A stretch of 64,000 bases of DNA from Crocinitomix sp. (lineage in GTDB: Bacteria; Bacteroidota; Bacteroidia; Flavobacteriales_D; Crocinitomicaceae): the NCBI GenBank assembly GCA_013138735.1, contig WTCE01000080.1:1-64000 (forward strand), given 5' to 3'. The notes beneath the pieces are model-generated. The model was not told the origin of the DNA. It was given only the letters and a program-made list of their open reading frames with translations, and searched no databases. A program made the position numbers and the translations under genes. Below, in pieces: positions 2 through 16,812 of this stretch; position 1 is the stretch's first letter; each line of letters begins with the position of its first letter.

Positions 2-145
2 GATAAAGAAGAACCGAAACATTATGACTTTTATGGATATATTTACTATTCTGTGACATCTAGTCACAAAATAGTAAAATTTGACGAGGCAAGCCTCGAG
101 GTATTAAACCTGAAAGCGAATAAAAAATGGCCTCCACCTGAATGA
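2..145 (+). CDS. C-terminal end of an unidentified protein (partial)
   Basis: An open frame runs in from the left edge and stops with TGA at 143-145, giving the last 47 residues of a protein whose start lies outside the window. The segment is rich in Tyr, Lys and charged residues, ends in WPPPE, and shows no membrane segment or recognisable motif. Its codon use resembles the neighbouring genes. It converges on the minus-strand gene ending at 193, with 47 bases between. I do not recognise the family. The call rests on frame openness to the edge only. Confidence 0.45.
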   Translation, partial: DKEEPKHYDFYGYIYYSVTSSHKIVKFDEASLEVLNLKANKKWPPPE

Positions 146-192
146 AGACCATTTACCCAACCCCACAATCCTACTCTACCCTATGATGCTCT

Positions 193-1359
193 TTAAAAAC
201 GAATGCTAACACCTGCATTTGCGCCCACCCAAATGGATGTACTACCTTCGTTGTTCCACCAGTTTTCTTCGAATAATGTATAAGGCACATTAAGCGCCGT
301 GTTTTCAGAATCTAGATTAAACTCAGACACATAAACATTGAACGAAGGCCCTGCAAAAATTCCGATATGATCGGTTAAATGAAAACGGAAAGCAGCATCT
401 GCACGACTCAAAATATTTAAACGCGGCGAAAAACTTTGTTGCAAAATATGATTGGCAGAAAGGTCTAGTGATAATTTCACTTTTTCTGTAATGCTTAACA
501 TGCTTCCAAAACCAAGCCCATATGTCAAATAGTTTTCTGATCCGTTAGCGGTATAACCTACTTTGTAAATCGTGTACAATTGATCAACCCCCATTTTATA
601 ATTAAGATTGGCATAAATGGCCTCACCACCCGAAATCTCAATAGCGTGATAACCATTTTTTACAAAGCTAATTAAACCAAATGGCACTCCTTTTTCAAAC
701 TCCTCTGCCACATTGATTAGCCCTAATTGAAAGCCTTTTATCTTTTTACCGTGATTGATTAATCCCATTTGGGCGCCAATAACATCTCCCGTAACAACGT
801 TTGAAATACCTGCTGCTTGCATGCCTGTAAAGTTGCCATTTACCGTATTTGAAATTCCAGCAAATTGAGCACCTATTACATTGCCGTTTGTTGTGTTTAC
901 AATACCACCAAATTGGGCACCAATTAAACTGCCGTTAACGGTGTTTGCAATACCTGCAAAATGAAGCCCTACTGCTGATTTACCGTATAAATTGGTAATG
1001 CCAGCAAAACTAACACTATTGCTCGTGTCTTTTACAATATTGGCGATTCCAGCGCAAATAATACCATTGGTTTTTTTAGTGTTTATATTGGCGATTCCGG
1101 CAAATTGAGCACCTGTTACATCTCCTAAATTTGTATTGACTAATCCACCGAATTCAACTCCATGCACGCCGCCGTTTATTCCGTATAGCACATTAAAGGA
1201 AACATTATTGGAATATTTAGGTGAATCAATTCCGTTTGTGCCAAGTGGATAGAAAAAGCTCACTTGACCCGGGCGACTCATTGTTGAATCTGTTTTTTGT
1301 GCTGAAGCCTGCCATGATATTGCAAGCAATAAAGCTATTGATAGTATTGTTTTTTTCAT
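193..1359 (-). CDS. AGI-repeat (LA_2272-like) surface/outer-membrane protein
   Basis: 388 aa with an N-terminal signal peptide (about residues 1-20, ending SWQASAQ). Residues ~55-235 are about ten ~19-20-aa repeats of the form GAQFAGIxNxxxGxxx. This resembles the LA_2272-type surface repeat family. A ~150-aa C-terminal region rich in alternating aromatic/polar strands ends in the aromatic residue typical of an outer-membrane barrel (SIRF). Repeats plus C-terminal domain are clearly homologous to the C-terminal two thirds of the protein at 3961-5913, so the two are paralogues. The ATG is 4 nt downstream of the TonB receptor stop, so the two are almost certainly co-transcribed. Biochemical role unknown. 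Location at the outer membrane is inferred from the signal peptide and strand pattern. Confidence 0.8.
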   Translation of the reverse strand: MKKTILSIALLLAISWQASAQKTDSTMSRPGQVSFFYPLGTNGIDSPKYSNNVSFNVLYGINGGVHGVEFGGLVNTNLGDVTGAQFAGIANINTKKTNGIICAGIANIVKDTSNSVSFAGITNLYGKSAVGLHFAGIANTVNGSLIGAQFGGIVNTTNGNVIGAQFAGISNTVNGNFTGMQAAGISNVVTGDVIGAQMGLINHGKKIKGFQLGLINVAEEFEKGVPFGLISFVKNGYHAIEISGGEAIYANLNYKMGVDQLYTIYKVGYTANGSENYLTYGLGFGSMLSITEKVKLSLDLSANHILQQSFSPRLNILSRADAAFRFHLTDHIGIFAGPSFNVYVSEFNLDSENTALNVPYTLFEENWWNNEGSTSIWVGANAGVSIRF

Positions 1360-1363
1360 TGTT

Positions 1364-3721
1364 TTAAAATTTAATTGTGTAAATCACATTTGGAATAATT
1401 GATAGTTGAACGTCCGTATCGATTTTATTTGTTCGACCATTATAAAATTCAGAAACGACTGCTTTATTATTGGTTAAGTTTTGAACGTCTATTTTGAAAG
1501 AATGACTGGCCCGTTTCATATCACAGCGATAAGTTAAACCAAGGTTTATAAAGAAAATATCATCTCCCTTTGCACCCCAAGGATTGCTCCAATCAGGGAT
1601 TGAATAGCCTGCGTCTTGCGAAGCGGGCAAATCAATTGGTGTAAATCGGTTTCCACCAATTAACGAGACTTTTGTGTTGATACCGAATGTTTTATTATTT
1701 CCTTTCTTTTTGCCAAACTTAAATTCTTTACCAGCCAATAAGTTGGCCGCATAATTGGCATCATAACGGGTGCTGCGCTCTACGCCATCTTTCAATGTAT
1801 ATTTAGATTGATAAACAGAACCTGTTACCAAGAAATAATAGTTGTTTTGAAAGAAACGTTCAAGGGTAAACTCAGCGCCATAATTACGTCCCTTTCCTTC
1901 GTTGATTAACTCAAAATCCGGCACGCCCGCTGACCAATTTAGGAAACTAAAATCGCTTGTTGGATCTTTGGCAATTGGTACATTATAAAGCTGCTGGTAA
2001 TACACTTCTGTTTTAAAGTGCATGTTTTCAGACAGACGATAGCCATAGCCCAATACATAATGCCTGCTTTTGGTTAAATCCAACTCCTTATTGGGGAAAG
2101 AATAAGTACCATCTTCTTGCAGTTCATTATACAAATAAACAGAAGGTGATTCTAAACGACTATGCATTCCAAATCCTGCTGAAACACTATGTCTTGGAGT
2201 CACTTGCCATTTCATACCTGCACGTGGTTCAACTGCTGTATTATTATTGAGAAGATAAGTTGTATGATGCACACCTGACACAATTGTGAGGTTATTGGTA
2301 ATACGGTGTCTCCAACTTAAAAAAGATTGCATCATCTCCGTATTTCCTTTTGAATCTTGAAAACGGGTTAGCACTCCATCCTGATCGTCATAATCATCCT
2401 CTTCAAAAAAATGATAATTAAAATGGGTATAAGTTGCGCCTATTTGAAAGATGTTTTTTTGGTTGGCTTTAAAGTTGGCAATCGATTGTACTTTGATATT
2501 ATTATCTGTAAAACTCTCTCTTTCTGATGTGTAAAACACACTATCTTTCTTCAAGAATTGTCCTTCACCACCATTGTATTGTGTAGACGCTGAAACGTAA
2601 CTTTTTAGATAAACTTTAGGATTAACAATGAAGGTATGCTTTAATGCCGCCATTCCAAGGTTGGCTTTAAAGTCATAAACACCATAAATTTCTCCAGTCG
2701 AATCGTTTTGACTGGTTTGAATAATTTTACTGATTCCACCCAATCCAACTATAGTAAATGTACCCGCCTTTTTAGTAGGGAAATTGAATTTAAATGCAGC
2801 ATCTTGATAAATAGGAACACCCCCAAAATCTAGAATCCCCGCTTTGTCCATTAAACTGAGTGTTGAATACCTATAATTAACCATATATGAACCACGGTAA
2901 CCCTTTTTAAACGGCCCTTCAAGTGTGGCTTCCAATCCTAAAGCACCTGCTTGAAAGGTATATTCTCTTTTTTGGTTATTTCCTTGGCGCATTTTTACAT
3001 CAAACACACCAGAAAGCGCATTGCCATATTCAGGTGCAAAAGCACCAGAAAAGAAATCGGAATTTGAGAGCACAGCACCGTTTAAAGCATTAATTGGTCC
3101 GCCTGTTGCACCATTATCTGAAAAGTGATTCGGATTTGGAATGTCTATCCCATCCAAGCGCCATAAAATACCACGGGGTGAATTTCCTCTAACTACAATA
3201 TCATTATCTCCTTCGGCATCACCAGTAACTCCTGCAAAACCAGAGGCCATTCTTGCCGGATCATTAAATGAACCTGCATAACGATTGGTCTCCTCAACAC
3301 TAAATGATTTAGCACTTACTGTTGCCATTTTATTTATAGCCTCGCTTTTATCTTTTTGGCTGGTGACCTCAACTTTTGTGAGGATCGTGATATCAGGTGT
3401 TAAATCAAAATTTAAGATTTTTTCTTTCCCTGACTCTATTAATACACTTGGCATTGAAATAGGCTGATATCCTATCGCCGTTATTTTTAATGATATGCGC
3501 CCTACAGGCACATTTGTTATTTTAAAATCACCGTTTTCATCTGTAATTCCGCCTAAAAGAGGATCCGTACCTGGTAAAATTAATCTGGCTCCTATAATTG
3601 GCACTTTCGTATCAAAATCAATTAAGGTTCCGCGTAAAGTTTGGGTTAATTCAACCTGACTCATTGCGCTTGTCCCTATGAAAAGCATTAAAATCGTTAG
3701 TATAAATTGTGTCTTTTTCAT
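1364..3721 (-). CDS. TonB-dependent receptor without STN domain
   Basis: 785 aa. A signal peptide (1-21) is followed directly by a carboxypeptidase-regulatory-like beta-sandwich (~residues 28-110, LRGTLIDFDTKVPIIGARLIL...GDFKITNVPVG). A plug domain follows (~130-245, with DIVVRGNSPRGILWRLDGIDIPN and a Gly-rich stretch). The rest is a 22-strand-type barrel ending in Phe (YTIKF). Such receptors import substrates across the outer membrane using TonB/ExbBD energy; the substrate is not evident and no SusD partner is nearby. There is no STN module before the carboxypeptidase-like domain, although the neighbouring ECF sigma/FecR genes normally pair with an STN receptor. The next gene (193-1359) follows by 4 nt. 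A candidate ECF promoter lies at 3749-3776. Confidence 0.92.
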   Translation of the reverse strand: MKKTQFILTILMLFIGTSAMSQVELTQTLRGTLIDFDTKVPIIGARLILPGTDPLLGGITDENGDFKITNVPVGRISLKITAIGYQPISMPSVLIESGKEKILNFDLTPDITILTKVEVTSQKDKSEAINKMATVSAKSFSVEETNRYAGSFNDPARMASGFAGVTGDAEGDNDIVVRGNSPRGILWRLDGIDIPNPNHFSDNGATGGPINALNGAVLSNSDFFSGAFAPEYGNALSGVFDVKMRQGNNQKREYTFQAGALGLEATLEGPFKKGYRGSYMVNYRYSTLSLMDKAGILDFGGVPIYQDAAFKFNFPTKKAGTFTIVGLGGISKIIQTSQNDSTGEIYGVYDFKANLGMAALKHTFIVNPKVYLKSYVSASTQYNGGEGQFLKKDSVFYTSERESFTDNNIKVQSIANFKANQKNIFQIGATYTHFNYHFFEEDDYDDQDGVLTRFQDSKGNTEMMQSFLSWRHRITNNLTIVSGVHHTTYLLNNNTAVEPRAGMKWQVTPRHSVSAGFGMHSRLESPSVYLYNELQEDGTYSFPNKELDLTKSRHYVLGYGYRLSENMHFKTEVYYQQLYNVPIAKDPTSDFSFLNWSAGVPDFELINEGKGRNYGAEFTLERFFQNNYYFLVTGSVYQSKYTLKDGVERSTRYDANYAANLLAGKEFKFGKKKGNNKTFGINTKVSLIGGNRFTPIDLPASQDAGYSIPDWSNPWGAKGDDIFFINLGLTYRCDMKRASHSFKIDVQNLTNNKAVVSEFYNGRTNKIDTDVQLSIIPNVIYTIKF

Positions 3722-3748: not shown

Positions 3749-3776
3749 GACGCCTATAATTGAAAAGACCCCTATT
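3749..3776 (-). promoter_or_regulatory. candidate ECF-sigma promoter of the TonB receptor
   Basis: Read on the minus strand: AATAGGGGTC, then 14 nt after GGGGTC, then CGTC, about 28 nt before the receptor ATG. The same layout (GGGGTC-N14-YGTC plus matching bases TTCA and TT between) occurs at 8326-8353, upstream of the GIN-domain lipoprotein. GGGG-type -35 and CGTC-type -10 elements with this spacing are in keeping with ECF promoters such as GGAACTT-N16-GTC. Assignment to the sigma factor at 6950-7489 is inference from position and duplication. Confidence 0.55.
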
Positions 3777-3960: not shown

Positions 3961-5913
3961 TTAAAAGCGCAAACCTATTTGCCCACCAATCCACATTTGC
4001 ACTCTTCCATTGGTCGATACTTCGTCATAAAACGGATTAAAGGCCACATTTGAAATATAAAGCCCTTCATCATTTGCATTCCCTTGATAATTGACATTAT
4101 ATGTTGGCCCCGCAAAAACGGTTACCCAGTCTTTCAAAGCGTACTCAATAGTTGGCGCAAATTTATAAAGCTGTGCAAACTTGAACGTCTGAAAATAATC
4201 CTCTGACAAAATTTGTGCGCTTAAATCAATGCTCATTTGCAATTTATTTTTGAGCGTAAAATTAGTACCTAATCCCAGACCTGCGGCAATAGTTTGGTCT
4301 GTTCCAAATTTGATTCCGAAGTTGTACGTATTATAAAAATAACGTGTTCCACTTTTTAAGGTGAGGTTAATAGGAAAAATTTCGTTGGCACTTATCTCTG
4401 TTTTATGATAGCCTGTTTTCACGAAATTAACGAGCCCCAATGAAACCCCTTTATTTTCATTACTGATATTTATTAAACCAAGCTGCAGCCCTTTATTGGA
4501 CTTTGCAAAATTAAAGATTCCAGCTATTTGAACCCCACTATTTACATCCGAAACATTGAAGATTCCTGCACCTTGCAAGAAATTAGTTCCTCCACCCGCG
4601 ATATTCGCAATTCCTGCCATTTGGCCCCCAACTAAACTGCCACTAACAGAATTATAAATCCCACTCATTTGTAAACCATAGGAATCCCCCAAGGCCATGG
4701 TTGAAATCCCTGCCGCCTGCGCACCTCTAAAACCACCACGAACTCCTGAATATATTCCACTTACCTGCACACCTCTAAAATCGCCATTTGTCAAATTAGA
4801 AATGCCCGCTAACTGCAACCCTTCAAAGTCTTGTCCTACCAAATTAGCAACTCCAGCAGTTTGAACACCTCTAAATTTATGGCTATTCAAATTGGCTATA
4901 CCGCCCAATTGTAATCCTGAAAATTCTCCCCGAACGATATTCGATATGCCAGCAATCTGCATTCCTAAAACATCTCCACCAACTAAATTGCTTATCCCGG
5001 CGGCTTGAAACCATTGCACGTCTTCTTTATTAATATTAAACAATCCACCAATTTCTGCACCTCTCACTCCCTTTGAATAACCACCCAAAACATTTAACGA
5101 AAAATTATTATAAATTAATCCATTTGTAGAAAGGTTTGAACCAATACTTAATGACGGAACGAACGAAATTTGTGCGATTCTAGTTTCTCTAATATCTTCT
5201 AAATTTTCTGCATGAATGGCAGTTTCATTTGAAATCATTGAACCTGAAATGGCCTTATCCTCAATGGGTAAATAAATGCGCTCAGGTGTTTTGGTTGCCA
5301 TTTTTTCTACAATTTCAACTTTGGGTTCAAGCTTTGCATTTCTAATAATTACAGAATCTGTTGCCGCATCCAAAACAAAAACCATTTCATGAAACCCTTT
5401 TTTGCGAATGTATAAACTACGAATAGTTTCCGCCTTTGGAATTTGTAATTCATAGGTTCCATCTGACTTAGAAACAGCCGCATACCTTGCATCAATATCA
5501 TAAATACTGGCACCAGCTATTGGCTTTCCAGTTCTTTTATCGGAGATTCTGCCTCTAAACACAGTAAAAAGGTTAGATTTTTTACGGCGTCGCATTTCAT
5601 CCACATCCTCATTCTTCAATAAAACGATATAATTACCCACCTCTTTAAAGCGAATATTTTTATTGAAGATTAGTGTCAAACCAAATTCAATCGTTTTCCG
5701 TTCAATACTCAAACTTACAACCTTATCATCTTCAATAACTGTAGGATTATAAGAGAATTGCACTCCTGTTCGCTCTTCAATTACAAACAGAATAGTTTTA
5801 ACAGGCGTTGCTTTGATATCTATACTAATGATACGATCCAAAACACCCGTTTTGGACCAAGACAATGTTGTCAACAGCAATAAGATAATTGAAAAGAGGT
5901 GTTTAATCTGCAT
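3961..5913 (-). CDS. STN-domain + carboxypeptidase-like + AGI-repeat transducer-like protein
   Basis: 650 aa from the ATG at 5913. The longer form would begin with TTG at 5922, but the ATG gives a normal signal peptide MQIKHLFSIILLLLTTLSWS. Domains in order: STN (secretin/TonB short N-terminal domain, ~25-100, IDIKATPVKTILFVIEERTG...), a carboxypeptidase-regulatory-like sandwich (~115-180), a linker, ~12 AGI repeats (~265-495), and a C-terminal strand-rich domain ending GGQIGLRF. STN domains normally sit on FecA-type TonB receptors or on secretins and contact the periplasmic end of FecR. Here no plug or TonB barrel follows. The gene overlaps the fecR stop by 11 nt, implying coupled translation. 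I infer an outer-membrane sensor that signals to the adjacent FecR. Its repeats and C-terminus match the protein at 193-1359. A 238-nt gap separates it from the receptor gene. Confidence 0.82.
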   Translation of the reverse strand: MQIKHLFSIILLLLTTLSWSKTGVLDRIISIDIKATPVKTILFVIEERTGVQFSYNPTVIEDDKVVSLSIERKTIEFGLTLIFNKNIRFKEVGNYIVLLKNEDVDEMRRRKKSNLFTVFRGRISDKRTGKPIAGASIYDIDARYAAVSKSDGTYELQIPKAETIRSLYIRKKGFHEMVFVLDAATDSVIIRNAKLEPKVEIVEKMATKTPERIYLPIEDKAISGSMISNETAIHAENLEDIRETRIAQISFVPSLSIGSNLSTNGLIYNNFSLNVLGGYSKGVRGAEIGGLFNINKEDVQWFQAAGISNLVGGDVLGMQIAGISNIVRGEFSGLQLGGIANLNSHKFRGVQTAGVANLVGQDFEGLQLAGISNLTNGDFRGVQVSGIYSGVRGGFRGAQAAGISTMALGDSYGLQMSGIYNSVSGSLVGGQMAGIANIAGGGTNFLQGAGIFNVSDVNSGVQIAGIFNFAKSNKGLQLGLINISNENKGVSLGLVNFVKTGYHKTEISANEIFPINLTLKSGTRYFYNTYNFGIKFGTDQTIAAGLGLGTNFTLKNKLQMSIDLSAQILSEDYFQTFKFAQLYKFAPTIEYALKDWVTVFAGPTYNVNYQGNANDEGLYISNVAFNPFYDEVSTNGRVQMWIGGQIGLRF

Positions 5914-6922
5914 TACATTCAATCCTGTATTTTCCGTTTGGTGATTTGATATAAATAAGTGGATAACTTTCGGTTAAAGCGTCCAGAAAAATTTCCAATG
6001 ATTGATTTTTATTAAAACTGCTATGAATCTCTTGATTTTCGATTGACGGGCAATCGAGAACCAAACTATCACCTGCGATTGAATTCATAATTTCGATTGC
6101 CTCGTTGAGTGCCACATCATCAAAGCTTAATTTCTCTTCTTTCCAAAACATATCTTCAATCCCCGCAGTTGGTGAATCGTCTCTTATTAATTCACCAGAG
6201 TTACGATTATAGATTCCTTTTTGTCCAGCAACTAAGATGATTGTGGATTCTCCACTTCCAAACTCAACCTTACCCGAACTTACATAAACTTCTGTTAAAG
6301 AGTCTCCTTCTGCTGCTTTAATGTTAAACGAAGTTCCTAAAACCTTCACATAATTATCTTGCGGCAAGTCAATGATAAAAGGTTTCTCTTCATTTCTTTC
6401 AATATCGAAGAATGCTTCGCCATTTAGTGTTACGCGGCGCTCATCATCAGCAAAATCCACCGGATAAACTAAGCTCGTGTTCGCATTAAAAGTAACGACT
6501 GATCCATCAGGTAACTCATCTACAAGTCCAGACTCAACAGCAACAAAAGTTGTATATTCCAACTCGCCAGCCCCACTGAATTTCATCCATGTTAACACAC
6601 CAAATAGCACCACAACAGATGCCGCAATTGACAGGTACATTCTTCGATTGAAGACGCGGTTAATCGGAATCACCTTTTCTTCATTTTGACCAATTTGCCC
6701 CATTACATTTTTCCAAGCCAAATCAGTATCCACAACAACAGGTTTGGGTTCAACTTTACCCGCCGCCTTCCACGCTTTTAACAACAAATTATAGCGTGCC
6801 TCATTTGCCTGACTTTCATCAATCCAATTGGAAACAACCTTGTTTTCCTTTGCATTTAATTCGCCATTGATATGCCCCATTAAAAGGGCATCCGATATTT
6901 CTATTTTTTCATTTTCGTCCAT
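5903..6922 (-). CDS. FecR-family anti-sigma factor
   Basis: 339 aa. The cytoplasmic N-terminal ~90 residues (ISDALLMGHINGELNAKE..., with the W and R positions typical of FecR anti-sigma heads) are followed by one membrane segment (~96-115, MYLSIAASVVVLFGVLTWM). The periplasmic FecR beta-domain spans ~125-235 (LPDGSVVTFNANTSLVYP, LNGEAFFDI, VKVLGTSFNIKA). A C-terminal DUF4974/STN-like module (~260-335, FDDVALNEAIEIMNSIAG) follows. Proteins of this family hold or activate the ECF sigma factor and receive the signal from an STN domain at the outer membrane. It lies 27 nt downstream of the sigma gene and overlaps the STN-protein gene by 11 nt, so the three form one unit. Confidence 0.92.
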   Translation of the reverse strand: MDENEKIEISDALLMGHINGELNAKENKVVSNWIDESQANEARYNLLLKAWKAAGKVEPKPVVVDTDLAWKNVMGQIGQNEEKVIPINRVFNRRMYLSIAASVVVLFGVLTWMKFSGAGELEYTTFVAVESGLVDELPDGSVVTFNANTSLVYPVDFADDERRVTLNGEAFFDIERNEEKPFIIDLPQDNYVKVLGTSFNIKAAEGDSLTEVYVSSGKVEFGSGESTIILVAGQKGIYNRNSGELIRDDSPTAGIEDMFWKEEKLSFDDVALNEAIEIMNSIAGDSLVLDCPSIENQEIHSSFNKNQSLEIFLDALTESYPLIYIKSPNGKYRIECNAD

Positions 6923-6949
6923 TTCCTAATTGTTCCATCTGCTACATCT

Positions 6950-7489
6950 TTAACTAAACATTATTAATACAAGGATCGTGAGGTATTCTGACAAATCATT
7001 TTTGAGGTGTTTAATAGCACTCCCCATTTGATTTTCTACCGTCTTAATGCTGATTTTTAATTTCTCAGCTATTTCCTTATATTTCAATCCTTCAAAGCGA
7101 CTTAGGATAAAAATCCTTCTCCGCCCTTCTGGCAAATTATCTATTGACTTTCGTATTTTCTCGTCCAACTCAACCCCCTGGTATTCATCATCAACCGTGT
7201 ATCTCCCCTGTTCCATCTCTAATTGATTGTGTTTTTTATATTCTTCTCTTACCTTGATATGTCTTAATTGATTAAAACAAGAATTTCGCGTGGCAGTGTG
7301 GAGGTAGGCTCTTGCTGATTTTTCAAATTGGACTTCTGCTCTATTTTCCCAGAGTTTTACAAAAAGTGACTGTACCGTTTCTTCCGCAGCTGCCAAATCA
7401 TCCAAATATTTATTGGCATATGCGCAGAGTTCACTATAATGCTTTTTGAAAAGCATTTCAAACTCCGATAAATCAACTGTAAATTCCAT
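6950..7489 (-). CDS. ECF-type RNA polymerase sigma-70 factor
   Basis: 179 aa. Region 2 occupies ~9-85 (FEMLFKKHYSELCAYANKYL, ATRNSCFNQLRHIK). Region 4 occupies ~112-170, with the helix-turn-helix FEGLKYKEIAEKLKISIKTVENQM. This is the Bacteroidota RpoE-like/FecI-like class (RNA polymerase sigma-70 factor, Bacteroidetes family) paired with FecR. The gene is first in a unit with fecR and the STN-repeat protein. Likely targets are the two promoter-like copies at 3749-3776 and 8326-8353. A housekeeping-type TAnnTTTG box sits 14 nt upstream of its ATG. No region 3, as expected for ECF factors. Confidence 0.93.
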   Translation of the reverse strand: MEFTVDLSEFEMLFKKHYSELCAYANKYLDDLAAAEETVQSLFVKLWENRAEVQFEKSARAYLHTATRNSCFNQLRHIKVREEYKKHNQLEMEQGRYTVDDEYQGVELDEKIRKSIDNLPEGRRRIFILSRFEGLKYKEIAEKLKISIKTVENQMGSAIKHLKNDLSEYLTILVLIMFS

Positions 7490-7563: not shown

Positions 7564-8295
7564 TTAATATGGTTTTATTGAACCAGAACCAGAGATTCGT
7601 TGATCAATAATTGGATTTCCTTTGTAGGTCACATCACCACTTCCAGAAATATTCACATCCAACCTATCAATCGCATAAACTTCACATTCACCAGACCCTG
7701 ATACTCGAATTTCTACCGTTTTTGATGGCACATTGAAGGCACGCACTTCACCTGACCCACTAATATCAATTGTTTCCGTTTCAATTGTATCCATAGCTGT
7801 TAACATGACATCTCCACTTCCAGAAATCACCATTTCCACATGATTTACAAATAAGCTATCAATTTCTAAACTGCCGCTTCCACTTATATCAAGTTCAAGA
7901 TCGTCTGAGGTCATTTTATTGGGTATAAAAACATCTCCACTTCCAGAAATTGATAAGTCTTTTAATTCAGGGAGTGTTATGTAGACTTTTACGTCATAGT
8001 TGTTTTTAATACATTTCCCTTTTTTTAAATCAATTTCCAATGTCGTTCCTGATACTTTCGTCTCAATTATTTCCATCAAATTATTACTTGCTTCAATACT
8101 CACCGAGTATTCATCACCTTGCGTCACATATAAATCGGCTGCCATTTCTAACGAAATTTTAGAAAAATCAGTATGTTCTCTTTCTTGTGTCACTACATTA
8201 CCGTCTGGTTGATAACAAAATACCCCACCTTTTTTACACCCTGTTGCAAAAAGTAAGAGCGAGCAAAAGATGAATGTTATTTTTATTCTTTTCAT
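7564..8295 (-). CDS. GIN-domain (DUF2807) lipoprotein
   Basis: 243 aa. The signal peptide ends in a lipobox at FATGC (Cys20), so it is probably a lipoprotein. From ~45 to the end it carries the DUF2807/GIN beta-helical domain, with repeated G-S-G-S/D-V turns (ISGSGDVFI, ISGSGSLEID, ISGSGDVMLT, VSGSGECEVY, ISGSGDVTYKG). This is the putative head domain often found with adhesin-like or cell-surface proteins; its molecular role is not established. It precedes the sigma gene by 74 nt on the same strand. It has its own upstream motif at 8326-8353, shared with the TonB receptor promoter, which suggests common control. Confidence 0.88.
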   Translation of the reverse strand: MKRIKITFIFCSLLLFATGCKKGGVFCYQPDGNVVTQEREHTDFSKISLEMAADLYVTQGDEYSVSIEASNNLMEIIETKVSGTTLEIDLKKGKCIKNNYDVKVYITLPELKDLSISGSGDVFIPNKMTSDDLELDISGSGSLEIDSLFVNHVEMVISGSGDVMLTAMDTIETETIDISGSGEVRAFNVPSKTVEIRVSGSGECEVYAIDRLDVNISGSGDVTYKGNPIIDQRISGSGSIKPY

Positions 8296-8325: not shown

Positions 8326-8353
8326 GACACGTCAAAATGAATTGACCCCTATT
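8326..8353 (-). promoter_or_regulatory. candidate ECF-sigma promoter of the GIN-domain lipoprotein
   Basis: Second copy of the motif seen at 3749-3776. On the minus strand it reads AATAGGGGTC, 14 nt, TGTC, ending about 30 nt before the ATG at 8295. A run of seven T lies just upstream in both copies. Spacing between the GGGGTC and YGTC parts is identical (14 nt). The link to the adjacent ECF sigma factor is inferred. Confidence 0.55.
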
Positions 8354-8534: not shown

Positions 8535-8602
8535 TCTTGAATGAATAAGTTGCCGTAATCAGCTGTTAACTCAGACAATAGAAATGGCTTACTAACTTGG
8601 CT

Positions 8603-11600
8603 ATGAATTTTTTAAAGACATTTTGCATATTGGCCTCTTTTTGCTTTGTGATAAATTCACAAGCAACAATTATATTGGTTGAAAATGTGAATGATGCGGG
8701 AATAGGTTCTTTGCGCCAAGCCGTTGCGGATGCATCCCCTTCTGCTGGCGATACAATTTTAATAAATGTAAAGGGAACCTTTGTTTTAGACAGCCCCATT
8801 GAATTTGATTCATTTACTGCCTTAACCGTTATTGGTCCATACTCCAAACATAATACAATAACTGCTGGCGCCGGTTGGACTGGTAGCTTGTTTCATATTA
8901 GCAATTCAGAAGGAATCACTTTCCAGAGCCTTGGATTTGAGAGTGGCAATGGAAATACACGGCATATAACAATTGAAGATTCCCCAAACGATATAATTTT
9001 TGAACGCTGCATGTTTCAAGACAATGACTATACCCTTCTTTTAGGTCAAGGTGGTTCCGTTAGAGTTATAAATTCTACTGCGTCATTCAGTCAATGTTCA
9101 TTTATCGAAAATCAAGCTACAGACGCTGGAGCAATGGTAGCTGAAGCGGGTGCAGAAATAACCCTAACGAATTGCACTTTTTCTGGCAATACGGCAAGTG
9201 GCCATACTGGAGCATTATTAATAAAAGGTACCTCAACTGCAATTCTATTATTTAATACTTTCGTCAATAATGATGCGGCATCTGTTGCAGAAGCGGTACG
9301 TGCCAATGGAACTACAAATATTACTTTGGGGAATAATGCTGTTGGAAATAATGGAACAGGTCGGCAAATGCGTTTGAATGGCGGGGTTGTTTCTCTCGGA
9401 AGAAATATTATCAAACAGAACTACCCAACTGAACCTATAAACCTTACACCAATGACTGGTGACATTGAATCAGATGCGCTTGATTTAGGTATAAGAACGA
9501 CTATCTTGGAAGATGGTTATGGTTTAAAATATTGGCCAATCACGGATGCTACAAGTGACTTGATTAACCCGGCCTCGCCTGGTGGAACTGTTCCTGATTT
9601 TGATTGCAGAAATGCGCCTAGAAATTTAAAAGGACCAAGTGCAACCAACGCCTATCCTGATGCAGGCGCATGCGAGTACACACATTTACGCGTAACGAAT
9701 GATGTTGGAACAGCCATAGCTAATTCATTTTTAGGTGTCCTTGCGGTTACCCCAAAGGATGCTATGCACTATATTGAATTTGATATCTCAAGCCCAACTG
9801 ACATTTCTCTTGGAGCTGAAGGTGTTATAGATGGCGGTGCTTATATCATTGACGGTTTTTCTCAAGCTGGCAGTTCTATCCCTGGCCCTCATCAAATAGG
9901 CACTGCAGGTGTAACTCCACCACTATTGCTCATTGATTTAGTAAACGGCGGATCGCATAACCACGGAATTAAATTTGAATTTAGCGCAGAAGGTTCAATT
10001 GTTCAAGGTTTAAGTGTACAAGGTTTCGATCGGCATGGACTAGAAGCAAATCAATCAGACGACATCTCTTTTTTTGGTTGCGAAGTGGGGATAGATGATG
10101 CAGGTGCCGAAAATGGAAATGCGCGTGCTGGTATTCGACTTAATAGTAATAACAATACTATAGGCGGCTGGGAACATTGGATGCGAAACACTGTTTCTGG
10201 AAACGGATTGTCTGGATCCGAAAAAGCTAATATTTACATTTCATTTGGTAATAATTCTAACACTATAAAGGGTAATATTATTGGTGGATCACCAGACGGC
10301 ATGAGTGGAATAGCTGGGCCACCTACAACCAATGGTATTTATGTTGCTTCATGGTACAATAAAATAGGAGGAACGCTTCCCAACGAGGGTAACATAATGA
10401 TAGACAACGAATACGGTTCATATCATCCTAGAACAGGAGATTTTACAACATATTGTGGGAATTTAATTGGTTTGGCTTATGATGAAAGCACTGCTGTGGG
10501 GAATTCTATTGCAGGAATTTCATTTAACGGCTGTGATGACAACCAAGTTGGAGGATATACTGATGCTGCTGCAAACAAAATTGCCCATAACGGCAGTGGT
10601 ATTCAAATAACTTTCGCAACCACAATTGCTGAACGTAATACGGTAGTAGGAAATTCTATTTATGCCAATGATTTTCAAGGTATTGATATTTCCGCAAATG
10701 GAACTGTACTAACGAATGATGGTGTTTTTGACGGATTTTATTCGAATCAGGGAATAGATTTTCCAGAATTAACTGAATCAACGGCTTGTGATGGTAGTTC
10801 TACAATCACAACATTTATTTTACGGGTGCCACCAACTGAAGATTATCGGGTAGAGTTTTTCACGAATACAAGTCCTGACGCCACAAATGGTGAGGGAGAA
10901 ACCCTAATTGATGTTACAACCATATCGGTTGTATCCAACCCGCAAACCATTGTATATGATCATGGGTTTGACATTGGGACAAGCGTATGGCTTACGGCTA
11001 CTGTCACACAAATTTCATCAGGAAACACCTCTGAATTTGGAACGAACGTTTTAACCACAACCGCGTCGAGTGATCCGAGTATAAGCTATAACGATATTTG
11101 TCCATGGGAGACGGCAAGTCCAAACTTTGATGGAGATATGGGAGGCGTTTTTAAGTTTTCAGATCCTGTACCAGTTGATGGAGCAACTATAGATGCAGCA
11201 ACAGGTGATATTATTGGAGCATTAGAAGGAATAACCTACGAAGTGATTTATGGGTTCTCAGGTGCTTGCGCAGACGAAGACACAACCGAATTTACTGTAA
11301 CAATAATTGATGAAACTTTTACAATGTCAGATTTCTGTCCTGGGGCAAATGGAACGGCAACTGGTATTGTTACACCGGGTGGTACCTTTTCATTGAATCC
11401 TGATTTTGGTGATGGCGCTTCGATAACGGCTGATAGTGGGATTTTAAGTGGCGGTGTTGAAGGAACAACTTATACAGTGCAATATATAGCAGATGACGGT
11501 ACTTGCAAAGACACTGGATATGTGGATGTATTTGTTACAATCACAGATGAAACATTCACAATGGCTGACTTTTGTGCAGAAGTTGAGAGTGCACCAGCCG

Positions 11601-14600
11601 TTCCGGTTACAGGTGGAGGTGTGTTTTCTTTTTCGCCTGACCCTGGAGATGGAGCAACCATAAATCCTTCGACTGGTGCTGTAACTGGCGGTGTAGAAGG
11701 TGCAACTTATATGATTAGTTATGTGGTTGGAAGCTGCAGCGAAGAGCATATCATTTCTGTTAATGTTATTGCAATAGATGAAAGTTTCACCTTTGCTAAT
11801 TTTTGCCCTGGTACTGTTGGAATGCCAGCTGACGTAGTTGTGGCTGGTGGATTTTCATTTTTGACACCTCCTGGAGATGGCGCAATTATCAATACAGGAA
11901 CTGGTTTCATAACAGGAGGTACTGAAGGCACAACTTATGAGGTACTGCATACTGTAGGCACTTGTGATGACAAAGACACGCTCTATCCAATGATGATTGA
12001 AGTATTGGAAGAATTTACGTATGCTGATTTTTGTATTGACGGAGATTCTTCAACTACATTTCCAGTAGCAGATGATCCTGCAAATTCTTATTATATTTTG
12101 GTTGGGGCATCATTTGGTGAAACTATTAATTCATCCACAGGAACCATTTACGGTGTAGTAGAAGGAGAAATATATACGGTTGTAGACAGTGTTCATTCGT
12201 CTGGTTGTTCTCAAACAGACACAGTGACGGTGACTTCTTTGAACATTGACGAATCATTCACAATGGCGGATTTTTGTCCAGAAGTTGTGAGTGCAGATGC
12301 TATTCCCGTTGTTCCTGGAGGTGCATTTTCTTTTGCTCCTGATCCTGCAGATGGAGCAACAATTAATCCAGCAACTGGTGCAATAACTGGCGGCGTAGAA
12401 GGCGCAACTTATGAAGTACGTTATGTCGTAGGTTCTTGTGATGAAGAGGATACCATTTCTGTTAATGTCATTGCAATAGATGAAAGTTTCACCTTTCCCA
12501 ATTTTTGTCCTGGCACCGTTGGAATGCCAACTGACGTTGTTGTGGCTGGCGGGTTTTCATTTTTGACACCTCCTGGAGATGGTTCAGTTATCAATCCTGG
12601 AACTGGTTTCATAACAGGAGGAACAGAGGGTACAACTTATGATGTTGTACATACCGTTGGGACTTGCGACGATAAAGACACGCTTTACCCTATGATGATT
12701 GTAGTATTAGAAGAATTTACGTATGCTGATTTTTGTATTGATGGAGATTCATCAACTACATTTCCAGTAGCAGATGATCCTGCAAATTCTTATTATATTT
12801 TGGTTGGTGCATCATTTGGTGAAACTATTAATTCATCCACAGGAACCATTTACGGCGTGGTAGAAGGAGAGATATATACCGTTGTGGACAGTGTTAATTC
12901 GTCTGGTTGCTGGCAGGCAGACACAGTGACCGTTACATCTTTAAACATTGACGAATCATTCACAATGGAAGACTTTTGTCCAATTATTGAGAGTGCCCCT
13001 GCTGTAACGATTACAGGTGGAGGTGTCTTTTCTTTTTCGCCTGACCCAGGAGATGGAGCAACAATTAACCCAGCAACTGGCGCCGTAACTGGCGGCGTTG
13101 AAGGCGCAACTTATGTGATTAGTTATATAGTTGGAACTTGTGATGAAGAACATATCGATTCAGCCTCTGTTATTGCCATAGATGAAAGCTTTACATTTCC
13201 TAATTTCTGCCCTGGTACTGTTGGAATGCCTGATGAAGTTGTTGTGGACGGCGGATTTTCATTTTTAACTCCTCCTGGAGACGCTGCAGTTATTGATCCG
13301 GGAACTGGTTTCATAACGGGAGGCACAGAAGATACAACTTATGCCGTATTACATACAGTTGGCTTTTGCAACGATAGTGATACACTTTTTCCAAAGATGT
13401 ATAAAGTATTAGAAGAATTTACTTATGATGATTTTTGTATTATTGGAGATTCTTCGAGCACACTTCCAATGGCAGAGGATTCTGAAAACGCTTCTTATTC
13501 TTTAGTTGGTCCATTGTTGTTTGGTGAAACTATTGATCCCGTTACTGGCACCATTCACAGTCCAGAAGAAGGAGTAACTTATACGGTAGTCAATACAAAC
13601 ACCACAACATTTGGTGTGATAGAGTGCACACAAACAGACACATTTTATGTGACAGCCATATTAATTCCCGAAGCTTTTTCATACGACAATTACTGTTTTG
13701 AAGGAACTGGATCGCCATATGATTATGTAGCAGGTGGAACCTTTTCATTAGTTGGCGGACCTTATGTTGGTGTTACGATCGATCCTCTTACTGGAGATAT
13801 GACTGGTGGATTGGATGGTGATTCATACACCATTCGGTATGTATACGAAATTGGGGATTGTGCTGACAGCAGTGAAGTAACAATTTCTATCGTACTACCT
13901 GACGCTTCATTCACATTCCCGGATTTTTGTCCAGGATTATTAATCAGTCCAGAACCTACTGCTTTGTTTGGTTCTGGAACGTGGGATTTCGAATTTGACC
14001 CTTTAGACGGCGCTTCTATTAATTTTTTAACTGGAGCCATTTCTGACCCTATTGAGTCTAATTTATATAGTGTTGTTTATACACTAGAAGATACTGTAAT
14101 TATTGGCTGTTTTAATTCTGATACCATGGAAGTAATGGTGAAAATTGTGAATGAAGGTTTTAGCTATGAAAACTTTTGTTGGGAATCTTCTTCAGAACCT
14201 GCCGAGGTACTAGAGGGAGGTGGTATTCTTGCTTTTGGCACACCTGGCCCTATTGATGGCGCAACATTAGACGACGAAGGAATTATTGAAAATGCCACAG
14301 AAGGAACCGTTTATGAAATTGTTCATACCCTTACAACAGATGGATGTACACAATCTGATTCGGTGCTAGTGACTGCACTCGGTGTTGATGAATCATTCAT
14401 TTTTGATGATTATTGTGCGGCCACATATAGCCCTGCTCCAATTGCCACAACTGATGGTGGAACCTATATTTTTGCTCCTGACCCTGCGGATGGCGCCACC
14501 ATTAATGTTTTAACCGGTGTAATCACAAATGGAATTGAAGGTTCATCTTATGAAGTAATGTATAGTGTAAATGACACCAGTGGCGCTTGTAATGAATCGG

Positions 14601-15892
14601 ATACAGTCACGGTATATGTAAAGGGTAGTGATGAAAGCTTTTCTATTGATAATTTTTGTGCGGAATTTCCAAGTGACTCTCCAATTCCAGCAGTTGGGAG
14701 TGGAACGTATACTTTCGAACCTGATCCAGCAGATGGAGCTGTGATTGATCCAATTACGGGTATTATTACTTCAGCTGATCCTGGTGCCACTTATGGCGTA
14801 ATGTATACACTAATGCTAGATGGGTGTACGGAAAGTGACACCAATGAGGTTATTGCTTATGCATCCGAAGTTGCTGAATTTACAACTGACAGCTATTGTG
14901 CAAATATTCCAACAGCAATCGAGATTACTGGAACTCCTGGCGGTACTTTTGAATTTGATCCTTCTCCTGCAGAAGACGGTGCAACAATTGATCCAAGTAC
15001 TGGGGTAATCAATGGCTCTGTTGGTGGCACATATGATGTTACTTATTTCACACCTGGTTCTGCTACAACTTGTGCAGATACGATAACCAAAACAATAACG
15101 CTATATGATATCCCTTCAATTATCGAGATATCATCTGACGTAGATTTATACTGTCCAGATGAAACACTAGGTGCAATCACAGTTACCGAGAATTTTGCGG
15201 CATCTCAAATTTATTGGTATATAGGGGACTCTGGCGGTGACATTAGCGACTCATCATTTACCTATACACCAGAAAATTTAACGGTTGGTGAGAATACCTT
15301 TTATGCCAAACCAAAAAGCAGTGAAGGTTGCTACGGCGAATACGCATCCTATATTATTTATCTTTCAGACACTTCAGGAATGGGAGCAATCTCAGATTTT
15401 GATATTTGTAGAGGGTCAGCTGCTCAACTTTGGGCATACGGAGGAGCATCCTATATCTGGCATACGGACGTTCCATTGGAAGACTATACGAACCCAGAAC
15501 CAATTGCAATTAGCTTGAATGAAGAAGCTTATGTCGTTTCCATATACAATGATGACGGCTGCCAGGTAATGGACACTATTCGCGTTAGATTTAAACCCCA
15601 AAACGAATGTCTTATTGATATCAACAATGCATTTTCACCCAACGGTGATGGAAAAAACGATTTTTGGTATATCGACAATTTAATCAACTATCTGCCAAAT
15701 ACTGTCTATATCTATAGCAGATGGGGTGATGAGGTGCAAAAAATAACCAATTACGACAATGTCACTATCACCAAATATTGGGACGGAAAAGATAAACACG
15801 GAAACGAACTACCACCTAATACCTACTTCTACGTTGTTATAACAGAAGGGTCCGACCAAAGTCAGGCAGGTTGGGTACAATTAGTACGCTAA
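8603..15892 (+). CDS. giant T9SS type B surface protein with ~17 tandem repeats
   Basis: 2429 aa from the ATG at 8603; an in-frame TTG at 8597 only adds two residues. Signal peptide ~1-22. Residues ~25-365 and ~365-735 look like two right-handed parallel beta-helix regions (FNGNT/CxFxxN-type coils, choice-of-anchor-Q-like). About 17 repeats of 77-85 aa follow (~830-2200). Each opens with ESFTxxxFC and contains DPxDGATINPxTGxITGGxEGxTYxV and a second Cys. The C-terminal ~95 residues are the gliding-motility-associated CHU_C module (FSPNGDGKNDFWYIDN, YSRWGDEV, WDGKDKHGNELPPNTYFY), the T9SS type B sorting signal. It is likely exported by T9SS and held at the surface by the PorP/SprF protein encoded 4 nt downstream, as in SprB/SprF pairs. 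An adhesive role is inferred. Confidence 0.9.
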   Translation: MNFLKTFCILASFCFVINSQATIILVENVNDAGIGSLRQAVADASPSAGDTILINVKGTFVLDSPIEFDSFTALTVIGPYSKHNTITAGAGWTGSLFHISNSEGITFQSLGFESGNGNTRHITIEDSPNDIIFERCMFQDNDYTLLLGQGGSVRVINSTASFSQCSFIENQATDAGAMVAEAGAEITLTNCTFSGNTASGHTGALLIKGTSTAILLFNTFVNNDAASVAEAVRANGTTNITLGNNAVGNNGTGRQMRLNGGVVSLGRNIIKQNYPTEPINLTPMTGDIESDALDLGIRTTILEDGYGLKYWPITDATSDLINPASPGGTVPDFDCRNAPRNLKGPSATNAYPDAGACEYTHLRVTNDVGTAIANSFLGVLAVTPKDAMHYIEFDISSPTDISLGAEGVIDGGAYIIDGFSQAGSSIPGPHQIGTAGVTPPLLLIDLVNGGSHNHGIKFEFSAEGSIVQGLSVQGFDRHGLEANQSDDISFFGCEVGIDDAGAENGNARAGIRLNSNNNTIGGWEHWMRNTVSGNGLSGSEKANIYISFGNNSNTIKGNIIGGSPDGMSGIAGPPTTNGIYVASWYNKIGGTLPNEGNIMIDNEYGSYHPRTGDFTTYCGNLIGLAYDESTAVGNSIAGISFNGCDDNQVGGYTDAAANKIAHNGSGIQITFATTIAERNTVVGNSIYANDFQGIDISANGTVLTNDGVFDGFYSNQGIDFPELTESTACDGSSTITTFILRVPPTEDYRVEFFTNTSPDATNGEGETLIDVTTISVVSNPQTIVYDHGFDIGTSVWLTATVTQISSGNTSEFGTNVLTTTASSDPSISYNDICPWETASPNFDGDMGGVFKFSDPVPVDGATIDAATGDIIGALEGITYEVIYGFSGACADEDTTEFTVTIIDETFTMSDFCPGANGTATGIVTPGGTFSLNPDFGDGASITADSGILSGGVEGTTYTVQYIADDGTCKDTGYVDVFVTITDETFTMADFCAEVESAPAVPVTGGGVFSFSPDPGDGATINPSTGAVTGGVEGATYMISYVVGSCSEEHIISVNVIAIDESFTFANFCPGTVGMPADVVVAGGFSFLTPPGDGAIINTGTGFITGGTEGTTYEVLHTVGTCDDKDTLYPMMIEVLEEFTYADFCIDGDSSTTFPVADDPANSYYILVGASFGETINSSTGTIYGVVEGEIYTVVDSVHSSGCSQTDTVTVTSLNIDESFTMADFCPEVVSADAIPVVPGGAFSFAPDPADGATINPATGAITGGVEGATYEVRYVVGSCDEEDTISVNVIAIDESFTFPNFCPGTVGMPTDVVVAGGFSFLTPPGDGSVINPGTGFITGGTEGTTYDVVHTVGTCDDKDTLYPMMIVVLEEFTYADFCIDGDSSTTFPVADDPANSYYILVGASFGETINSSTGTIYGVVEGEIYTVVDSVNSSGCWQADTVTVTSLNIDESFTMEDFCPIIESAPAVTITGGGVFSFSPDPGDGATINPATGAVTGGVEGATYVISYIVGTCDEEHIDSASVIAIDESFTFPNFCPGTVGMPDEVVVDGGFSFLTPPGDAAVIDPGTGFITGGTEDTTYAVLHTVGFCNDSDTLFPKMYKVLEEFTYDDFCIIGDSSSTLPMAEDSENASYSLVGPLLFGETIDPVTGTIHSPEEGVTYTVVNTNTTTFGVIECTQTDTFYVTAILIPEAFSYDNYCFEGTGSPYDYVAGGTFSLVGGPYVGVTIDPLTGDMTGGLDGDSYTIRYVYEIGDCADSSEVTISIVLPDASFTFPDFCPGLLISPEPTALFGSGTWDFEFDPLDGASINFLTGAISDPIESNLYSVVYTLEDTVIIGCFNSDTMEVMVKIVNEGFSYENFCWESSSEPAEVLEGGGILAFGTPGPIDGATLDDEGIIENATEGTVYEIVHTLTTDGCTQSDSVLVTALGVDESFIFDDYCAATYSPAPIATTDGGTYIFAPDPADGATINVLTGVITNGIEGSSYEVMYSVNDTSGACNESDTVTVYVKGSDESFSIDNFCAEFPSDSPIPAVGSGTYTFEPDPADGAVIDPITGIITSADPGATYGVMYTLMLDGCTESDTNEVIAYASEVAEFTTDSYCANIPTAIEITGTPGGTFEFDPSPAEDGATIDPSTGVINGSVGGTYDVTYFTPGSATTCADTITKTITLYDIPSIIEISSDVDLYCPDETLGAITVTENFAASQIYWYIGDSGGDISDSSFTYTPENLTVGENTFYAKPKSSEGCYGEYASYIIYLSDTSGMGAISDFDICRGSAAQLWAYGGASYIWHTDVPLEDYTNPEPIAISLNEEAYVVSIYNDDGCQVMDTIRVRFKPQNECLIDINNAFSPNGDGKNDFWYIDNLINYLPNTVYIYSRWGDEVQKITNYDNVTITKYWDGKDKHGNELPPNTYFYVVITEGSDQSQAGWVQLVR
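11549..13654 (+). repeat. 702-bp higher-order tandem repeat inside the giant adhesin
   Basis: Three successive ~78-aa repeats form a 234-aa unit that is itself present three times. Equivalent codons recur at 11546, 12248 and 12950 (start of the first subrepeat) and at 11777, 12479 and 13181 (second subrepeat), an exact 702-bp period. The third subrepeat of units 1 and 2 (about 12010-12240 and 12712-12942) is nearly identical at DNA level. Unit 3 diverges and is slightly longer. This indicates recent segmental duplication or gene conversion. Confidence 0.9.
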
Positions 15893-15896
15893 AAAA

Positions 15897-16811
15897 ATGA
15901 GAATAATATTCATCATATGGTTTATGACTAGTTTTGCTGGAATCGCTCAGCAAGACGCTATTTATAGTCAATACATGTTTAATCCATTTGCAATAAACCC
16001 TGCTTATGCTGGTTCGCGAGATGCGGTTAACGTTGTTGTGATAAACAGAAGTCAATGGGTCGGTTTGAAAGGTGCACCAAGTACCCAAACCATTTCTGGA
16101 CATGTGCCAATGAACAGGAATAATTTGGCGTGGGGATTAAACATTTCAAGAGATAAAATAGGGCCTTCAAGTAATTTATTAGCTGCTGTAACTGGGGCTT
16201 ATCAATTGAAACTATATAAAGGCACCCTCACTTTTGGTTTAAGAGGAGGAATCTATAATTCAGTGATTGATCATGGTCAACTTAATTTTAGAGAGGATGA
16301 TGACGTGCTTGACCACAATGAACGTATGAGTTCAATGGTACCAACCTTTGATTTTGGTTTGTACTATTACACCGAACGCTTTTATGCTGGGCTGTCTTCA
16401 AACCATATTACTAAACACCGCTTTAATTATTCGAACTTAGCCAACAATCAGGCATACTATTTGCGTAGACATACATTTTTAGCTGCTGGTTATGTCTTTG
16501 AAATAAACCGCGATTTACAACTTAAGCCATCCGTTTTATTGAAGCATGGTGGCGGCATGGTTTTTAACGCAGATGTGAATGTAAACGCACTTTTTAAAGA
16601 ACTTTTTTGGCTTGGAATTGGCCTTAGAAATTTATCTAGTTTAAATTTCTTGGTAGACTTTAATGTAACTGATTATCTTAGGGTCGGATATTCGTATGAT
16701 ATGACACTAAATAAACTGCAAAATTATTCGCATGGTTCACATGAAATTATTATCGGCTTTGATTTTAATTTAAGAAGGTCATCCAATATGTTATCCCCTC
16801 GTTATTTATAA
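15897..16811 (+). CDS. PorP/SprF family type IX secretion outer-membrane protein
   Basis: 304 aa. Signal peptide ~1-18, then the family hallmark QDAIYSQYMFNPFAINPAYAGSRD and strands of a ~14-strand outer-membrane barrel. In Flavobacterium johnsoniae, SprF is needed for secretion and attachment of the type B cargo SprB. Genes of this family usually sit directly downstream of a CHU_C-tailed adhesin, as here: 4 nt after the 2429-aa protein stop and 1 nt before the next gene. I therefore infer that it is the dedicated surface anchor or translocon partner of that adhesin. Confidence 0.93.
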   Translation: MRIIFIIWFMTSFAGIAQQDAIYSQYMFNPFAINPAYAGSRDAVNVVVINRSQWVGLKGAPSTQTISGHVPMNRNNLAWGLNISRDKIGPSSNLLAAVTGAYQLKLYKGTLTFGLRGGIYNSVIDHGQLNFREDDDVLDHNERMSSMVPTFDFGLYYYTERFYAGLSSNHITKHRFNYSNLANNQAYYLRRHTFLAAGYVFEINRDLQLKPSVLLKHGGGMVFNADVNVNALFKELFWLGIGLRNLSSLNFLVDFNVTDYLRVGYSYDMTLNKLQNYSHGSHEIIIGFDFNLRRSSNMLSPRYL

Positions 16812-16812
16812 A

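Follow-up and report, generated by a model that had tools for sequence, protein, structure and literature searches.

A candidate signalling cassette of Bacteroidia in which an STN-bearing AGI-repeat protein stands beside an ECF sigma factor and FecR

Related systems and the locus in Crocinitomix

Cell-surface signalling is usually described as a property of TonB-dependent receptors. In systems of the FecI/FecR/FecA type (also PupI/PupR/PupB and FoxI/FoxR/FoxA) an extracytoplasmic function (ECF) sigma factor, a FecR-type anti-sigma factor and a partner with an N-terminal STN domain are encoded by adjacent genes. The same arrangement is present in a stretch of 64,000 nucleotides (nt) from Crocinitomix sp. 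(contig WTCE01000080.1 of assembly GCA_013138735.1; hereafter the window), where a promoter-like motif precedes the system's own operon, as autoregulation would give. Unlike in the FecA-type systems, the partner is a 650-amino acid (aa) protein, here called the STN-AGI protein, which has neither a plug nor a TonB-receptor barrel and carries instead AGI repeats and a different C-terminus; in addition, the motif-bearing neighbours vary. The sigma factor, FecR and the STN-AGI protein probably form a trans-envelope signalling cassette that has its own promoter and regulon and uses a protein other than a TonB receptor as outer-membrane transducer.

An STN domain on a protein other than a receptor is not new in principle. 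The known non-barrel precedent is VreA of the VreA/VreI/VreR (PUMA3) system of Pseudomonas aeruginosa, which likewise bears STN and is encoded beside an ECF sigma factor and a regulator (PMC2729926). VreA differs from the STN-AGI protein in being small and mostly soluble, consisting of STN and a TolA/TonB-like domain with no barrel, and the accessible portion of the same source mentions neither repeats nor a carboxypeptidase-like domain. No TolA/TonB domain was found in Pfam scans of the STN-AGI proteins. The STN-bearing SusC receptors of Bacteroidota, as presented in the available text of PMC7782687, combine STN with a PF13715 domain and have a sigma/anti-sigma partner but, unlike the STN-AGI protein, are complete TonB transporters that possess both plug and barrel. 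The LA_2272/VC2662 repeat proteins (NF047436, NF047437) share the AGI-type repeat, whereas their family names carry no link to STN or to sigma factors; an excerpt of PMC10865864 refers to VC2662 as an uncharacterized hypothetical protein. Our searches of the open PMC literature turned up no account of an STN-AGI transducer, the cassette or the motif, while the sigma group and a predicted promoter may stand in the ECF sigma classification. As far as that literature shows, the arrangement is a new and widespread variant of cell-surface signalling.

The genes in question lie on the minus strand in the order DUF2807, sigma, fecR, STN-AGI, TonB receptor and AGI-only, with about 240 nt separating the fourth from the fifth. 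Their features, in direction of transcription, are as follows.

8326–8351, minus strand: promoter-like motif TAGGGGTC-N14-TGTC before the DUF2807–sigma–fecR–STN-AGI operon, 30 nt upstream of the DUF2807 start
7564–8295, minus strand: DUF2807 protein (head GIN/Toastrack-type), putative lipoprotein (Pfam PF10988, 1.1e-48; lipobox by eye)
6950–7489, minus strand: ECF sigma factor (TIGR02985, 1.1e-49, 168.7 bits against a cut-off of 126.4)
5903–6922, minus strand: FecR-type anti-sigma factor (PF04773, 8e-13, 49.1 bits against a cut-off of 24)
3961–5913, minus strand: STN-AGI protein, 650 aa, proposed transducer (from the open reading frame (ORF), Pfam and comparison of loci)
5605–5850, minus strand: STN domain of the STN-AGI protein (from family STN scans and profile-profile comparison)
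5320–5556, minus strand: carboxypeptidase-regulatory-like domain of the same protein (PF13715, 9.6e-7, below cut-off)
4498–5067, minus strand: AGI repeats of the LA_2272 type, 16-aa period, 11 cores (lag-16 identities; NF047436, 0.004, below cut-off)
3964–4491, minus strand: C-terminal barrel-like region ending in Phe (kept in 49 aligned members; strands in poor models)
3749–3774, minus strand: second promoter-like motif, TAGGGGTC-N14-CGTC, before the receptor–AGI operon, 27 nt upstream of the receptor start
1364–3721, minus strand: TonB-dependent receptor without STN (PF13620, PF00593, weak Plug)
193–1359, minus strand: AGI-only protein, 388 aa, paralogue of the repeat and barrel part of the proposed transducer (NF047436, 1.7e-6, above cut-off)

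The STN-AGI ORF opens at a TTG (5922), and an ATG at 5913 is its likely start; read from there, the protein has 650 residues and its gene overlaps the end of fecR (5903) by 11 nt, as the original prediction, made from the letters of the window, had it. That prediction also held for the receptor, in which Pfam recognises a carboxypeptidase-like domain, the receptor barrel and a weak Plug (22.3 bits against a cut-off of 23.9) but no STN. The window FecR has a single hydrophobic segment (about residues 95–113) and a FecR_C match under the cut-off (1.2e-3, 19.2 bits against 24.4).

Conservation of the cassette and domains of the STN-AGI protein

A genome search for the FecR/STN-AGI pair had been set beforehand as a test of the prediction. 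Among 119 genomes of relatives 26 matched the protein and 20, own genome included, have an STN-AGI gene. The profile was matched at 1e-12 by 161 of 395 class genomes, ordinary STN receptors being included in that count, and by hand count STN-AGI-sized frames occur in at least about 70 of the 395, among the matches listed. Sixty loci from 28 families (979,442 bases) were read: 20 from the order, including the window, and 40 picked to spread over the families of the class. FecR directly precedes the STN-AGI gene in all 60, and an ECF sigma gene precedes FecR in 58; one of the two loci that lack it (L013) is cut by its contig. The cassette lies near a TonB receptor in 38 loci, a DUF2807 gene in 27, an AGI-only gene in 26 and none of the three in six. 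A receptor with STN was found near it in 0 of the 60. The closest named relative is an uncultured Crocinitomix (L040), with an STN-AGI protein 83% identical to that of the window in a scan of genome contigs with one protein; scans of viral contigs yielded no relatives. In genome G060 the STN-AGI gene (L047:3131–4970, minus strand) is split into two overlapping frames; it was excluded from the family alignment (A1) and from the STN scan.

The layout of the 650-aa protein is a signal peptide followed by STN, the carboxypeptidase-like domain, AGI repeats and a barrel-like C-terminus. As to STN, 49 of the 60 segments were taken into an alignment (A6), the 11 omitted including most of the weakest, ten of which were scanned afterwards. 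PF07660 was matched at E≤0.01 by 46 of the 49 (best 3e-14) and by six of the ten, in total 52 of 59, and profile-profile comparison of the family STN with that of seven ordinary receptor-type proteins gave a probability of 99.2 (E 7.5e-20). The assignment, weak for the window protein alone, appears firm for the family. FecR_C is also matched by 10 of the 49 segments, which fits the description of PupR as ending in an STN subdomain (PMC7186176, in part). The carboxypeptidase-like domain scores 9.6e-7 in the window protein (CarbopepD_reg_2, 29.2 bits, below the curated 32.2), and PF13715, the Pfam family of the SusC N-terminal extension, was found in 19 of 19 members.

The repeats predicted for this protein are real, although there are 11 cores rather than about 12; numbered from the TTG they run from residue 305 to 464 with a spacing of 16, the last being 15. 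At lag 16, residues 286–500 show 65 identical positions, and none of 1000 shuffles exceeded 37. With NF047436 (LA_2272 repeats; cut-off 25) the STN-AGI protein scores 16.9 and the AGI-only protein 27.7, and 14 of 19 STN-AGI members match it at E≤0.01. A plug or barrel hidden in the 650-aa protein had been considered at the outset: at 0.01, Pfam recognises neither a Plug nor a TonB barrel in any of the 19 members. Three match the SusC model TIGR04056, which is taken to reflect the carboxypeptidase-like part of that model. The barrel-like C-terminus is plausible only: the last residue is F in 47 of the 60 ORFs, and one of 19 members matches OMP_b-brl_2 (0.0024). In AlphaFold models only the repeat block reaches a predicted local distance difference test (pLDDT) score of about 55–79, partly as alternating strands of 9 and 3 residues per 16; this suggests a beta-solenoid but proves nothing. 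Foldseek searches with the predicted models gave no match below E 0.001, the best for the first model being the SusC N-terminal extension 9hfj (E 0.06), and no significant match came from PDB profile searches with the alignments of STN, barrel and AGI-only protein, the best STN match being a PilQ (E 0.16).

The original prediction had further proposed that STN moved from the receptor to the separate protein. While the pairing of a non-TonB, STN-bearing protein with sigma and FecR is kept, a move from this TonB receptor is not supported. Of 119 class genomes, 84 have a match to its family at E≤1e-60, including genomes with no STN-AGI match (e.g., G121, G123). The 60 loci contain 37 full-length ORFs that match the receptor profile, all of them without an STN match, and in 22 loci no receptor was seen within the stretch read. 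When 395 genomes were drawn from across the phylum, the out-of-class matches extended over repeats and barrel, with the exception of one receptor-sized frame (among the matches listed), and all ten out-of-class AGI loci fetched had no STN, sigma, FecR or motif nearby. Since AGI proteins occur there without these elements, the gain of an STN–carboxypeptidase head by an existing AGI protein would be the simpler history.

A shared motif and a sigma lineage

The motif TAGGGGTA-N14-TGTC, with two copies in the window, was first seen when two intergenic stretches of the window were set side by side, and the initial pattern was written from those two sites. Over the 60 loci TAGGGG-N16-YGTC gave 88 sense matches, no antisense and no reversed ones; at any other spacer from 8 to 26 there were at most three matches, and ten first-order Markov random replicates contained 0–2 each. 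The motif occurs in 45 of the loci, at least twice in 35, and in 20 of the 28 families; the 40 class loci include 28 with the motif and 20 with two or more copies. The consensus is TAGGGGTAA-N8-T-N-AGTTGTC(T/A)TA, in which TAGGGG and GTC are invariant by construction, being fixed in the search pattern. The nearest gene start, at a median distance of 22 nt (longest ORF call), is that of a receptor at 23 of the 88 sites, sigma at 22, DUF2807 at 20, AGI-only at 10, FecR at eight, STN-AGI at one and another gene at four.

Eight control sigma–FecR loci had no match (the partner has a Pfam Plug in seven; the eighth, L068, is cut and was outside the Plug scan). Among the family-level genomes searched with the strict pattern, 15 with the cassette contained 29 matches (6 reversed), 21 of them at the cassette, and 13 without it contained one (5 reversed). 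Likewise, 33 class genomes with the cassette had 52 matches (12 reversed), compared with two (10 reversed) in 34 class genomes without it, that is, with no match to the A1 profile at 1e-12. These distributions would fit a dedicated promoter that may be read by the cassette sigma factor.

In a tree of 86 sigma factors the best split found by search (support 0.951) groups 58 of the 59 sequences belonging to AGI loci together with three of the 27 remaining ones. Of those three, two belong to loci with small STN proteins (L202/L214 and L213/L215) and one to a receptor locus (L209/L216). Duplicates and fragments were omitted from this tree and from that of 88 FecRs. A single sigma lineage fits the shared motif.

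For a survey of FecR partners 60 genomes were drawn separately from the class, and their 30 best-matching FecR loci were read. The partner was an STN-AGI protein in seven and a receptor in 17 (16 by Pfam Plug and one, L204, by the receptor profile on a cut frame). One locus encodes an 801-aa protein with STN, carboxypeptidase-like domain and ankyrin but no Plug (L217:4001–6406, minus strand), and in two STN is carried by proteins of 458 and 483 aa (L214:4281–5657, minus strand; L215:3510–4961, plus strand), in which no carboxypeptidase-like domain or repeats were found and one of which has a weak outer-membrane barrel match. No partner was seen in the remaining three, one of them at a contig end. 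Of the 27 partners found, 10 are thus something other than a TonB receptor, and these non-receptor partners come in several kinds. The motif is present in four of the seven AGI loci of this census even in short stretches, and absent from the 23 others and from longer stretches of 20 of those.

The window's genome retains two ordinary sigma–FecR–STN-receptor systems (L072, L073). Other STN proteins of its relatives (14 loci) belong to systems of this kind or are 633–683-aa proteins beside a gene for 460–530 aa, which, judging by size, context and PF07660 matches only, are taken for secretin systems. In ordinary STN receptors (L072, L073, L221, L222, L224 and others) STN lies ahead of the carboxypeptidase-like domain; for SusC proteins the reverse order is given in the available part of PMC7782687.

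Some copies of the motif lie away from the cassette. In the window's genome the only convincing sites are the two local ones and one 30 nt upstream of a second DUF2807 gene on contig C37 (L109:667–1470, minus strand; DUF2807 4.1e-37); a similar DUF2807 gene with a motif site was observed in genome G005 (L116). A motif-like site 21 nt upstream of an alpha/beta hydrolase gene on contig C90 (L110:1548–2597, plus strand) may be due to chance, given that this genome shows no enrichment of the loose pattern. Off-cassette copies also lie 11 and 27 nt upstream of another FecR-like gene in G054 (L122:557–1489, minus strand) and G040 (L134:562–1473, minus strand), respectively, where cross-talk to a second anti-sigma factor is possible.

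Signalling model and alternative explanations

By analogy with the known systems, the STN-AGI protein would sit in the outer membrane via its C-terminal barrel and 16-residue repeats, its N-terminal STN extending into the periplasm and pairing with FecR through the latter's STN-like C-terminal domain. The STN of the outer-membrane protein PupB is described as pairing with the periplasmic domain of PupR (PMC7186176, in the text available), and for FoxA/FoxR, STN pairing is stated to guard the FecR-type protein from proteolysis until the signal (PMC11637429, in part). A change in the AGI part, through which sensing would take place, might alter the STN–FecR contact, upon which FecR would be degraded and sigma released. 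The freed sigma factor would then use TAGGGGTA-N14-TGTC as its presumed promoter, activating both its own operon and the receptor, AGI-only and DUF2807 genes nearby.

Several observations weigh against the cassette as proposed. The FecRs of AGI loci do not group in their tree (support 0.237). At L170 (4375–7351, minus strand), which is not at a contig end, a FecR/STN-AGI pair has no sigma gene in 8.6 kilobases (kb) upstream, and at L242 (6112–7875, plus strand) the STN-AGI gene is an orphan, the 14 kb fetched containing neither sigma nor FecR nor motif. The strict motif has no match in 15 of the 60 loci, and a looser pattern gave five matches in the window's own genome against four for its reverse. 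The window STN (Pfam 6.7e-4, 19.9 bits) falls below the curated 28.4, and 7 of the 59 family segments scanned, three of the 49 aligned and four of the ten others, have no Pfam STN match at 0.01. The membrane barrel and surface location of the STN-AGI protein are putative, and two AlphaFold models were poor (mean pLDDT 38.5 and 43.7).

In a special form of the cassette model the STN-AGI protein would report folding or crowding of AGI barrels instead of an outside ligand. This version is rather unlikely, but it arises naturally because the protein shares its sensor part, repeats and barrel, with the regulated AGI-only protein, so that the loop might, speculatively, watch the AGI/outer-membrane system itself. 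AGI-only paralogues accompany the cassette in 26 loci, ten motif sites lie ahead of AGI-only genes, and in G194 an unlinked AGI-only match (contig C11, 110781–112028) starts about 95 nt past a motif copy. In the accessible text of PMC11237479, DUF2807 is classed with Toastrack domains, which are linked to envelope stress; that source assigns Toastrack an intracellular location, but a lipobox is present in 17 of the 28 DUF2807 ORFs of these loci. On the other side, 34 of the 60 loci have no AGI-only gene nearby.

A split FecA, in which the neighbouring TonB receptor actually senses the ligand and the STN-AGI protein supplies only the signalling half, linked to the receptor in the outer membrane, would account for the receptor of one STN-less family in 38 loci, for the 23 motifs that precede a receptor and for the motif before the window's receptor operon. 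We consider it improbable: in the stretches read 22 of the 60 loci have no receptor, although four of these stretches (L013, L047, L166, L178) are short on a side, the receptor family is widespread without the cassette, as noted above, and the targets may be AGI-only or DUF2807 genes instead.

It is very improbable that sigma and FecR act without the STN-AGI protein, the latter being just a surface protein that is transcribed along with them and whose STN has decayed. The subthreshold STN score in the window and the seven members lacking a Pfam STN would agree with decay; yet the domain is recognisable in 52 of 59, which makes decay unlikely, and the gene follows FecR in all 60 loci, L242 being the only separation seen. 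Chance or an annotation artefact, to which the weak Pfam scores of the single window protein might point, is practically eliminated by the comparative counts (gene order, STN scans, motif, repeat shuffles and Markov replicates).

We put forward more tentatively, as something short of probable, that the cassette model extends to a class-wide family of non-TonB transducers, in which an AGI barrel protein with an STN head, one ECF sigma lineage and their own promoter make up a self-contained loop watching an outer-membrane system of AGI-only, DUF2807 and receptor proteins. If so, together with the ankyrin protein of L217 and the small barrel-like proteins of L214 and L215, STN heads would occur on several unrelated proteins, the TonB receptor being only one of many possible inputs, and another outer-membrane protein in its place would broaden the idea of what signals across two membranes. 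The near-invariant motif provides a handle for reading the regulon directly from sequence and checking it with reporters; sigma factor and motif may serve as an orthogonal pair for Bacteroidota, and the AGI-repeat and DUF2807 families would gain a possible role.

Downstream of the AGI-only gene lies one further feature:

125–154, minus strand: terminator-like hairpin after the AGI-only gene (weak; 6 such sites against 6.0 expected)

The divergent neighbours on the other side of the locus (8597–19083, plus strand) encode a 2431-aa protein with a CHU_C type IX secretion signal, a PorP/SprF protein and an OmpA-family protein.

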